Shown: one piece after another, positions 6,689-9,114 of the stretch
Layout: each line of letters opens with the position of its first letter
Position numbering within the stretch: position 1 is the first letter of the stretch
From: Solirubrobacterales bacterium 67-14
Lineage (GTDB): Bacteria > Actinomycetota > Thermoleophilia > Solirubrobacterales > 70-9
DNA: 64,000 nt
Direction of reading: 5' to 3'
Assembly (NCBI GenBank): GCA_001897355.1
Contig: MKST01000005.1
Span: forward strand, 10,391 to 74,390
Made by a program: the position numbers and the translations under genes
The notes under the pieces: generated by a model
Database searches by the model: none
The model's input: the letters and a program-made list of their open reading frames with translations, nothing else
Told to the model about the DNA's origin: nothing

Positions 6689-6806
6689 CGCCACATCCAG
6701 AGGGGTGGAGGGACTTGGCCCTACGAAACCCCGGCAACCAGCGGTCGCGAGAGCGATCGAGAAGGTGCCAAATCCAGCGGCTCGCGTAGCCGGGAGATGT
6801 GGGGAG
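6689..6806 (+). ncRNA. SAM-I (S-box) riboswitch aptamer
   Basis: Conserved S-box blocks appear in order: AGAGGGGTGGAGGGAC (6699-6714), GGCCCTACGAAACCCCGGCAACC (6717-6739), GGTGCCAAATCCAGC (6764-6778) and a closing GAGATGTGG. Helix P1 is formed by CCACATC (6691-6697) with GATGTGG (6796-6802). It binds S-adenosylmethionine and usually switches off methionine or cysteine genes by termination. A strong intrinsic terminator follows 14 bases later. The regulated operon starts with a threonine-synthase-like gene, then a CysO-like sulfur carrier. Confidence 0.93.
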
Positions 6807-6819
6807 AAGTCCGATCGGA

Positions 6820-6851
6820 CCTTCGCCCCACGCGGCGAAGGTTTTTGTTTT
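6820..6851 (+). terminator. Riboswitch-controlled intrinsic terminator
   Basis: Perfect 8-bp stem CCTTCGCC/GGCGAAGG (6820-6827 and 6834-6841) with a 6-nt loop, followed by TTTTTGTTTT. It lies between the SAM aptamer and the first gene, so ligand binding should favour termination and low SAM should allow read-through. Confidence 0.9.
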
Positions 6852-6882
6852 CCCGCAGGGGATTCATGAAAGGAACGATCGG

Positions 6883-8115
6883 ATGGCAGTCAAGAATTTG
6901 AAATGCAAGGAATGCTCGGCCGAGTACGAGCTCGGGGCGAACTTCTTCTGCGCCGAGTGCTTCGGGCCGCTCGAAGTCAAGTACGACCACTCGGACCTGA
7001 ACCCGGAGGAAACCCGCCGGCGGATCCAGGCCGGATCCCGGGGGATCTGGCGTTACGCCGATTTCCTGCCCTTCCAGAACAAGGCGGGAGACCCGCTCGA
7101 GCCGGGCATGACTCCGCTGCTCAAGGCCGACCGCCTCTCCGAGGTGCTCGGGACCGGGGCCGAGATCTACATCAAGAACGACGCCGCCAACCCGACCCAC
7201 TCCTTCAAGGACCGGGTCGTGGCGGTCGCTATCGCCAAGGCCAAGGAGCTGGGTTTCGAGACCGTCGCCTGTGCCTCCACCGGCAACCTGGCCAACGCCG
7301 TCGCCGCCCACGCCGCTGCGGCGGGTCTCGACTCCTACGTCTTCGTGCCCTCCAACCTGGAGGAGCAGAAGCTGCTCGCCACCGACATCTACGGCACCAA
7401 CCTGGTCGGCGTGAAGGGCAACTACGACGACGTCAACCGGCTCTGCACGCAGCTTGCCGACGAGAAGCCCTGGGCCTTCGTCAACGTCAACCTGCGCCCG
7501 TACTACGCCGAGGGTTCGAAGACCCTCGCTTTCGAGACGGTCGAACAGCTGGGCTGGAACCTGCCGGACCGGGTGGTCGCCCCGATCGCTTCCGGATCGC
7601 TCTTCACCAAGATCTCGCGCGGTTTCCAGGAGTGGCAGGAGGTCGGGTTGGTCGAGGGTGAACAGCCGGTCTTCCACGGCGCCCAGGCCGAGGGCTGCTC
7701 GCCGGTGGCGACCGCCTTCGCCGAGGGCACCCGGGTCTGCCGCCCGCAGAAGCCGGACACGATCGCCAAGAGCCTGGCGATCGGCGACCCGGCCGACGGT
7801 CCCTACGCGGTTGCCCAGGCCAATGAGACCGGCGGTTCGATCGACGCGGTTTCCGACGACGAGATCCGGGCCGGCATCCGCCTGCTGGCCGAGACGACCG
7901 GCATCTTCACCGAGACCGCCGGTGGGGTCACGGTCGGTGTGCTGAAGAAGCTGGCCGACCGCGGCGAGCTGAAGGACGGCGAGAAGGTCGTGGTGTACAT
8001 CACCGGCGAGGGATTGAAGACCCTCGACGCGAATCGCGATAGCTTTGCCCTGACCGCGATCGATCCCAACCCGGAATCGTTCGAAAGCAAGTTCGGCCAG
8101 GAGGTCGCCGCCTGA
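6883..8115 (+). CDS. thrC: Threonine synthase-like PLP enzyme
   Basis: 410 aa fold-type II PLP enzyme. An N-terminal zinc-ribbon has Cys8, Cys11, Cys23 and Cys26; the PLP lysine is Lys109 in PTHSFKD; the ASTGNLANA loop follows. Threonine synthase converts O-phosphohomoserine to threonine. Control by a SAM riboswitch and overlap with a CysO-like sulfur carrier suggest it could instead, or also, make homocysteine from O-phosphohomoserine with carrier thiocarboxylate; that is inference. The start is ATG 6883, preceded by AAAGGA. An in-frame ATG at 6799 lies inside the aptamer P1 helix and is rejected. No hom or thrB gene is adjacent. Confidence 0.88.
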   Translation: MAVKNLKCKECSAEYELGANFFCAECFGPLEVKYDHSDLNPEETRRRIQAGSRGIWRYADFLPFQNKAGDPLEPGMTPLLKADRLSEVLGTGAEIYIKNDAANPTHSFKDRVVAVAIAKAKELGFETVACASTGNLANAVAAHAAAAGLDSYVFVPSNLEEQKLLATDIYGTNLVGVKGNYDDVNRLCTQLADEKPWAFVNVNLRPYYAEGSKTLAFETVEQLGWNLPDRVVAPIASGSLFTKISRGFQEWQEVGLVEGEQPVFHGAQAEGCSPVATAFAEGTRVCRPQKPDTIAKSLAIGDPADGPYAVAQANETGGSIDAVSDDEIRAGIRLLAETTGIFTETAGGVTVGVLKKLADRGELKDGEKVVVYITGEGLKTLDANRDSFALTAIDPNPESFESKFGQEVAA

Positions 8116-8390
8116 TGGCAGTCACAGTCAAGATCCCGACCCAGCTTCGCGCCACCACTGGCGGCCAGGCCGACCTGACCGCCGAGGGTTCGACCGTCGG
8201 CGAGGTACTCGGCGCGGTTTTCGCCGAGCACGGGGACCTCAAGGACCGGATCACCGAGGGCGGCGAACTGCGCCGTTTCGTCAACGTCTACGTCGGGGGG
8301 GAGGACATCCGCTTCGGCGAAGGCCTCGGCACCGAGGTCGCCGACGGGGCCGAGGTCACGATCCTGCCCGCTGTCGCCGGCGGCTGCTGA
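8115..8390 (+). CDS. CysO/MoaD-family sulfur carrier protein
   Basis: 91 aa ubiquitin-fold carrier. It tracks mycobacterial CysO along its whole length: a VKIPTQLR opening, TGGQ, RRFVNVYV in the middle and the C-terminus VTILPAVAGG. CysO carries sulfur as a C-terminal Gly-Gly thiocarboxylate for PLP-dependent amino acid synthesis. Here the diglycine is followed by one extra Cys before the stop, so a protease of the Mec/JAMM type would have to trim it, as known for some carriers. The start overlaps the thrC-like stop (TGATG), implying coupled translation. No JAMM protease or activating enzyme is in the window. Confidence 0.88.
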   Translation: MAVTVKIPTQLRATTGGQADLTAEGSTVGEVLGAVFAEHGDLKDRITEGGELRRFVNVYVGGEDIRFGEGLGTEVADGAEVTILPAVAGGC

Positions 8391-8394
8391 AGAC

Positions 8395-9114
8395 CTGAAA
8401 CCTCCAGTCCTCATCCTCAGCGGCGGGCGGGGGACCCGCCTGCGCGAAAGGACCGAGACACTGCCCAAACCGCTGGTCGAGGTGGGTGGCAAGCCGCTGA
8501 TCTGGCATGTGATCCAGATCTACGCGCGCCAGGGTTTCACCCGCTTCTACCCGCTGACCGGCTACCTCGGCGAGAAGATCGAGGAGTTCGTGGCCGGCGA
8601 GGCCTGGCCTGAAGGAGTCTCGGTCGAGTGCGTCGAGACCGGCCTGGACACGCCGACCGGCGGCCGGATCGCCCTGGCCCGGGACCTGGTCGACGGAACC
8701 TTCTGCGCCACCTACGCCGACGGCGTCTCGGACATCGACCTCACCGCGCTTCTCGATTTCCATCGCTCCGGCGGTCGCGCGGCGACCATGACCGCGGTGC
8801 GGCCGAACCTCCAATGGGGGGTGGCCGAGATCGACACCGCCGGCGAAGTCACCGGGTTCACCGAGAAGCCCCGCTCCGAACACTGGATCAACGGCGGCTT
8901 CTTCTGCTTCGAGCCGTCCGTTCTCGATTGGCTCGGATCCGATTCCGTGCTCGAACGGGAGCCGCTGGAAGGCTTGGCCGCGGACGGCCAGCTCGGCGCC
9001 TTCCGTCACCAAGGCTTCTGGGACTGCTGCGACACGTACAAGGACCTGGTCACCCTCAACGACCTCTGGGCCGGCGGAGACGCTCCCTGGCTCACGGCGA
9101 AAGCGCCCGCGTGA
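8395..9114 (+). CDS. Sugar nucleotidyltransferase (RfbF-like)
   Basis: About 239 aa. The N-terminal nucleotide loop LILSGGRGTRLRE and PKPLVEVGGKPLIWH match glucose-1-phosphate cytidylyl/thymidylyltransferases; GWhole motifs TYADGVSDID and FTEKPRSEHWINGGFF follow. The WGVAEID and HWINGGFF blocks are most like the CDP-glucose pyrophosphorylase group. The frame is open from a stop at 8176-8178 to the first GTG (8482), which would delete the whole nucleotide loop, and it holds no ATG, GTG or TTG in between. The best start is CTG 8395, four bases after the cysO stop, giving (M)KPPVLILSGG. The end overlaps the next gene by four bases (GTGA). Confidence 0.82.
   Translation: MKPPVLILSGGRGTRLRERTETLPKPLVEVGGKPLIWHVIQIYARQGFTRFYPLTGYLGEKIEEFVAGEAWPEGVSVECVETGLDTPTGGRIALARDLVDGTFCATYADGVSDIDLTALLDFHRSGGRAATMTAVRPNLQWGVAEIDTAGEVTGFTEKPRSEHWINGGFFCFEPSVLDWLGSDSVLEREPLEGLAADGQLGAFRHQGFWDCCDTYKDLVTLNDLWAGGDAPWLTAKAPA

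Follow-up and report, generated by a model that had tools for sequence, protein, structure and literature searches.

A metM-metO pair behind a SAM-I riboswitch in Solirubrobacterales bacterium 67-14: a probable sulfur-carrier route from O-phosphohomoserine to homocysteine

The DNA analysed here, called the window, is a stretch of 64,000 nt from Solirubrobacterales bacterium 67-14 (GCA_001897355.1, MKST01000005.1, positions 10,391–74,390, forward strand). The GTDB lineage of the host is Bacteria; Actinomycetota; Thermoleophilia; Solirubrobacterales; 70-9. Its genome assembly (G000) is 3.23 Mb in 12 contigs and is 95% complete. The operon segment under study corresponds to window positions 6689–8390. 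It carries on the plus strand, in this order, a SAM-I (S-box) riboswitch aptamer (6690–6803), an intrinsic-terminator-like hairpin with a T tract (6817–6854), metM (6883–8115), and metO (8115–8390).

The aptamer is matched by the Rfam covariance model RF00162 over 108 of its 108 positions, with 81.6 bits (gathering score 44.4) and E=1.1e-17. The terminator scan places a hairpin stem at 6817–6844, followed by TTGTTTT. The leader segment 6804–6856 folds at −19.5 kcal/mol (z −2.1), and 9 of 200 shuffles fold as well. The scan alone finds two terminators in the region against a shuffle mean of 1.7, which is within chance. The hairpin is credible because of its position between the aptamer and the start codon, and it is the likely expression platform. 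The original prediction had read this leader as a full S-box aptamer with a terminator, and both are recovered, the latter as a terminator-like hairpin. The SAM-I riboswitch would bring the expression of metM-metO under SAM-dependent control.

By the same scan, a similar leader hairpin is seen in two relatives (L012 and L013), and none is found in two others (L016 and L020). Of the 109 metM loci of the class, 108 were scanned; one was omitted since its upstream stretch is too short. A terminator-like hairpin is present in 29 of these 108 leaders; when every leader was letter-shuffled once, 0 of 108 had one. A hairpin common to all leaders of the class was expected and was not found by the scan. 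Many relatives might therefore use another expression platform, or their hairpin might lie beyond the reach of the scan.

The ThrC-like ORF runs from ATG 6883 to 8115 and encodes 410 aa. An in-frame GTG is also present at 6799, and the ATG is taken as the start because relatives align from residues 1–6. The N-terminus of MetM forms a CxxC...CxxC ribbon, and a PALP domain (Pfam) follows. MetM scores 288.9 bits against TIGR00260 (threonine synthase; cut-off 167.1). Among the matches listed, it stays under the cut-offs of the five PRK threonine-synthase models, and the best cysteine-synthase model gives 47.4 bits with a cut-off of 387. The top NCBIfam name is threonine synthase both for the window enzyme (P0001) and for the Streptomyces-type orthologue L066, which is 56% identical to it. 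No MetM model of NCBIfam appears among the best 25 of 41 matches of P0001 or among all 16 matches of L066.

The metO ORF (8115–8390, plus strand) encodes a sulfur carrier of 91 aa of the ThiS family. It begins on a base that also belongs to the metM stop codon, so the overlap noted in the original prediction, of a zinc-ribbon ThrC-like gene with a CysO-like carrier gene, is present. The C-terminus, PAVAGGC, extends one Cys past Gly-Gly. The carrier is 52.7% identical to the Streptomyces-type carrier of L066. Among the 86 class carriers called by ORF pattern, 17 have one or two residues past Gly-Gly, which suggests that clipping is sometimes needed. Directly after the carrier, a nucleotidyltransferase-like frame is seen by eye at window positions 8395–9114 on the plus strand. 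Its first ATG/GTG/TTG (8482) comes only after the N-terminal motif, so that it may start at CTG 8395, and it may share the metM-metO transcript.

The two best solved relatives of the carrier are 4n6e_B (E=8.5e-24) and CysO of M. tuberculosis (3dwg, E=3.5e-23). This likeness could be taken to mean that the pair forms cysteine in a CysM-like route, with a serine ester as the acceptor and sulfur from a CysO-type carrier. A separate carrier locus of the own genome, L004:1333–3780, combines a CysM-like gene and a JAB protease with a ThiF-type E1 piece and a CysO-like carrier whose tail is GGRA. The CysM-like enzyme there (P0008) is a member of the cysteine synthase family and is labelled after its neighbour genes. 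CysK is present in addition, and the window enzyme is matched by the ThrC model at 289 bits against 47 bits for the best cysteine-synthase model among the matches listed. A cysteine-forming role of the pair is very improbable on these grounds.

In a tree of 60 rows, a MetM-type clade of 45 rows is separated from 15 ThrC rows by a split with 100/100 support and a branch of 1.97. The window MetM falls in the 45-row clade together with the Streptomyces-type L066, L070, and L073. These three make up the Streptomyces side of the tree; the S. albulus sequence and the named Streptomyces loci lie outside its sampling. Six second copies from class genomes are also inside the MetM-type clade, on longer branches (midpoint root). 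Motifs were picked by eye from an alignment. Of the 134 MetM-type rows, 114–131 contain each of six MetM motifs, which are absent from all 15 ThrC rows; six ThrC motifs are each seen in 8–13 of the 15 ThrC rows and in none of the 134. The N-terminal ribbon pattern is found in 131 of the 134 MetM-type rows. Three sequences cut by contig ends (L124, L130, L131) and three partial or distant ones (L136, L150, L151) were left out of this count. Based on the clade and the shared motifs, the window enzyme is orthologous to Streptomyces-type MetM. It has neither the placement nor the motifs of canonical ThrC, despite its TIGR00260 score above the cut-off.

The own genome encodes seven PALP proteins, among them CysK (P0003), the CysM-like P0008, a canonical ThrC (P0004), and the window MetM. 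A second, ordinary thrC had been proposed as something to look for, and P0004 is this gene, placed directly after the gene for homoserine dehydrogenase (P0005). A homoserine-kinase-type ORF (L252:1254–2129, by eye) lies about 2.3 kb past it on the same strand. MetH is also encoded. For PF01053, one protein is above the family cut-off and two weaker ones are below. The former is MetY, and the gene of MetX, which passes PRK00175, follows directly. The MetM route is therefore redundant in this genome, where the classical route is present. A complete standard homocysteine pathway without any other threonine synthase had been named in the original prediction as what would speak against it; the pathway is present here, whereas the second thrC contradicts the other part of this condition.

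Two SAM-I riboswitches of the own genome are among the matches listed, one on contig 5 and one on contig 7. MetY is encoded on contig 2, at a locus that contains no Rfam family above threshold. The riboswitch on contig 7 (locus L084, G000:C7:239168–239267, minus strand) scores 56.9 bits. The sole notable frame after it, judged by eye, is a short ORF of about 80 residues.

The distribution of MetM was compared over a class set of 199 genomes. MetM (E<=1e-80 to the window enzyme) is found in 109 of them, PF01053 (E<=1e-50) in 143, and MetX (TIGR01392, E<=1e-30) in 100. Presence of MetX rests on E-values, because no MetX match in the 199 genomes reaches the curated cut-off of TIGR01392. At these thresholds, MetM is present in 46 of the 51 genomes with neither MetX nor PF01053 matches, and in 63 of the 148 genomes with either or both; the remaining 5 and 85 genomes, respectively, do not have MetM. 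Fisher's test of this cross-table gives p ~1e-9 with related genomes treated as independent. Four of the 46 MetM-only genomes (G017, G093, G103, and G160) are single-contig assemblies. A separate ThrC (E<=1e-70) is found in 45 of the 46 and in 105 of the 109 MetM-bearing genomes. The co-occurrence of MetM and a separate ThrC in genomes without MetX and PF01053 is to be expected of a substitute homocysteine synthase that draws on O-phosphohomoserine. The expectation that the enzyme occurs where classical genes are absent is thus borne out, at these thresholds, in 46 of the 109 MetM-bearing class genomes; it does not hold in the own genome, where MetX and MetY are present.

The HcyBio enzyme PF01837 is found in 0 of 47 genomes (the 46 MetM-only genomes and G000), in a search whose control gave matches in 3 of 14 known genomes. 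PF02574 (MetH/BHMT type) is present in 27 of the 46 MetM-only genomes and in G000. Two of the other 19 have PF01717 (MetE type). The remaining 17, which are the 16 genomes of family f9 and G173, have neither PF02574 nor PF01717. All 16 genomes of f9 carry a metM gene with a SAM riboswitch, and 14 of them have MTHFR. At three f9 loci (L258, L260, and L261), MTHFR is seen by eye amid ORFs resembling a corrinoid/acetyl-CoA-pathway operon.

The linkage of MetM with the riboswitch is nearly constant in the class. Among the matches listed, 107 of the 109 genomes have a SAM riboswitch at most 1 kb upstream of MetM and in the same orientation, with a median gap of 78 nt (range 28–629). Of the two exceptions, MetM of G095 is a fragment at the edge of a contig, and that of G110 is a match of 41% identity. 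None of the six second, more distant copies is preceded by a SAM riboswitch among the matches listed under stricter filters. SAM riboswitches are also located directly upstream of PF01053 enzymes in relatives, for example in G015, G114, and G117. It may be that control by SAM passes from one of the homocysteine routes to the other. In three of the 46 MetM-only genomes (G093, G133, and G136), a second SAM riboswitch precedes a PF02574 gene among the matches listed; the gene in G093 is read as MetH.

At 87 of the 109 loci of the class, a carrier follows MetM within 300 nt; 86 of these carriers were called by ORF pattern and one by tblastn. A contig end truncates three other loci, and 19 contain no carrier within ~400–500 nt downstream. 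Fourteen of these 19 are all 14 loci of family f7. In G168, a member of f7 (L254:7254–9448, minus strand), MetM without an adjacent carrier overlaps an ORF of 305 residues for a homocysteine S-methyltransferase, with one SAM riboswitch ahead of both. ThrC is near this MetM, as are ThrB-like and homoserine-dehydrogenase-like ORFs (these two by eye).

These data bear on the possibility that MetM is an additional threonine synthase, whose control by SAM would help divide phosphohomoserine between threonine and methionine, with the carrier as a neighbour of another role. The curated model TIGR00260 is passed, and a homologue of Microcystis forms threonine in vitro, acting on O-phosphohomoserine mainly as a threonine synthase according to the excerpted text of PMC12172450. 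In the same excerpts, this homologue gives an unidentified peak close to methionine, whether or not sulfide is added, and methionine is not raised in treated cells. The MetM family may therefore not be uniform in activity. For the window enzyme, threonine synthesis is very improbable. A separate ThrC stands beside homoserine dehydrogenase in the own genome and is found in nearly all MetM-bearing class genomes, the enzyme tracks the loss of MetX/MetY, and none of the six tested ThrC motifs occurs in its clade. Besides, turning on a threonine enzyme at low SAM would be the wrong direction of control.

A related possibility is that the beta carbon receives the carrier sulfur, which would give 3-methylcysteine (2-amino-3-mercaptobutyrate) or a derived metabolite instead of homocysteine. 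The enzyme belongs to the same sequence family as ThrC, and ThrC adds a nucleophile, water, at the beta carbon. Such a product would leave unexplained the SAM control, the replacement of MetX/MetY, and the unit of G168 with the homocysteine S-methyltransferase. The Streptomyces enzyme is moreover reported to give homocysteine (PMC12172450, excerpted text). Beta-addition is highly improbable, even more so than threonine synthesis. On the evidence above, the second threonine synthase, the beta-addition enzyme, and the CysM-like route are all rejected.

MetM is not restricted to this class. It is found at E<=1e-100 in 107 of 296 genomes of the phylum. Outside the class, an adjacent carrier is present at 27 of 31 phylum loci (26 by pattern and L079 by tblastn), and one of the four loci without it ends 85 nt past the gene. 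Rfam finds a SAM riboswitch at 13 of 20 phylum loci outside the class, a sample that does not include the named Streptomyces loci, and finds none at the other seven (L056–L058 and L061–L064). In a scan of named genomes with L066 as the query, the best 80 loci are 93–99% identical; 79 of them are titled Streptomyces and one is Actinobacteria bacterium OV320. The carrier is downstream of MetM at 80 of these 80 loci, and a SAM riboswitch is found at all 19 that were given to Rfam. Many Streptomyces are described as lacking the classical homocysteine genes, but such a lack does not define the metM-metO pair as such. A plasmid search returned one record, from Nonomuraea.

Taken together, the operon very probably represents a metM-metO pair that, under a SAM-I riboswitch, makes homocysteine, the precursor of methionine, from O-phosphohomoserine with carrier-borne sulfur. 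This reading builds on the parts and their order, the riboswitch, the separate ThrC, the homoserine-kinase-type ORF, MetH, and the genomic replacement pattern, all of which are read directly from the DNA. Weighing against it are the MetX and MetY of the own genome, the 19 class loci with no carrier nearby, the seven phylum loci where Rfam finds no riboswitch, the behaviour of the Microcystis homologue, and the 17 MetM-only genomes in which neither PF02574 nor PF01717 matched a methionine synthase. The reaction itself would be that of the Streptomyces enzyme. The abstract of the 2024 work on the latter reportedly names MetO as the thiocarboxylate donor, and is said to place the route also in other bacteria and archaea.

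The route can be pictured as follows. At low SAM, the leader would be read through, and both MetM and MetO would be made. A JAB/Mec-type protease probably clips the extra C-terminal Cys of MetO and exposes Gly-Gly. An E1-like enzyme would then adenylate and thiocarboxylate this end. The E1 and the JAB protease are possibly those of the CysM-like locus. MetM, a fold-type-II PLP enzyme, would eliminate phosphate from O-phosphohomoserine and add the carrier sulfur at the gamma carbon. Hydrolysis would free homocysteine, which MetH would methylate to methionine.

The O-phosphohomoserine acceptor, the carrier sulfur, and the homocysteine product of the original prediction are supported at the level of sequence comparison. 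They are the same as those reported for Streptomyces MetM with its neighbouring MetO, and the loci are alike. The mechanism had thus already been published, as the same architecture is present in Streptomyces and MetM/MetO were reported in 2024. The sulfur-carrier homocysteine route is real and is not a new idea.

The own genome has two homocysteine routes, and a SAM riboswitch is detected only at the carrier route, so MetM-MetO may be a demand-driven branch. It can be tentatively speculated that this branch is sulfide-sparing, stands beside MetX-MetY, and shares the E1 and the JAB protease with the own CysO-CysM system. As part of the same doubtful proposal, MetM of f7 without an adjacent carrier and the riboswitch-led MetM-homocysteine methyltransferase unit of G168 might reflect another sulfur donor and a direct hand-over of homocysteine.

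With a riboswitch at 107 of 109 class loci (among the matches listed) and MetM in 46 of 51 genomes without MetX and PF01053, the Streptomyces route is extended to another class of the phylum. Genes of the metM type are likely mis-annotated as threonine synthase. As this is the top NCBIfam name, automated pipelines may list such bacteria as methionine auxotrophs or credit them with a spare thrC. The riboswitch, the carrier, and the motifs are simple marks for re-annotation. Points of interest are that this genome has MetM beside MetX and MetY, the class-wide riboswitch link with the replacement pattern, and the MetM loci of f7 without adjacent carriers. The questions of sulfur donor and regulation become testable in genomes that have both routes and in those whose MetM has no carrier beside it.

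The closest known system is that of Streptomyces albulus, whose MetM is described as a novel homocysteine synthase converting O-phosphohomoserine to homocysteine (Hasebe et al. 2024, Appl Environ Microbiol 90:e01247-24, doi 10.1128/aem.01247-24, as cited in PMC12172450). The excerpted text of PMC12172450 also names metO beside S. albulus metM as a gene of the sulfur-carrier family, and places a SAM riboswitch upstream of this metM, whereas the Microcystis homologue is without one. In its available excerpts, PMC12452182 treats T-box control of thrC in Bacillota and contains nothing on the metM-metO pair; for active-site residues of Thermus ThrC, nothing usable was found in the literature. The present locus resembles that of S. 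albulus, as excerpted, in its ThrC-like enzyme, its neighbouring sulfur-carrier gene, and its upstream SAM riboswitch. It differs in that MetX and MetY are also present in the genome, the carrier has an extra Cys after Gly-Gly, and the host comes from a different class within the phylum.

Three other systems share parts of this design. The CysO-CysM-Mec system of mycobacteria is a carrier-thiocarboxylate pathway to cysteine. The carriers are homologous, the thiocarboxylate logic is common to both, and the own genome has its CysM-like/JAB/CysO-like/E1 cluster. Here, however, the enzyme is ThrC-like and not CysM-like, and the acceptor would be derived from homoserine and not from serine. The Wolinella-type HcyS system makes homocysteine via MetY, a fold-type-I enzyme, with O-acetylhomoserine as the acceptor and carrier tails that need clipping. 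Carrier-borne sulfur going to homocysteine and a carrier tail past Gly-Gly are shared with the present pair, whereas the O-acetylhomoserine acceptor and the fold-type-I MetY belong to the HcyS system. Finally, ThrC (TIGR00260) is similar to MetM in sequence family, in substrate lineage, and in the score above the model cut-off. MetM differs from ThrC in its separate clade, its own motifs, its carrier partner, and its SAM riboswitch.
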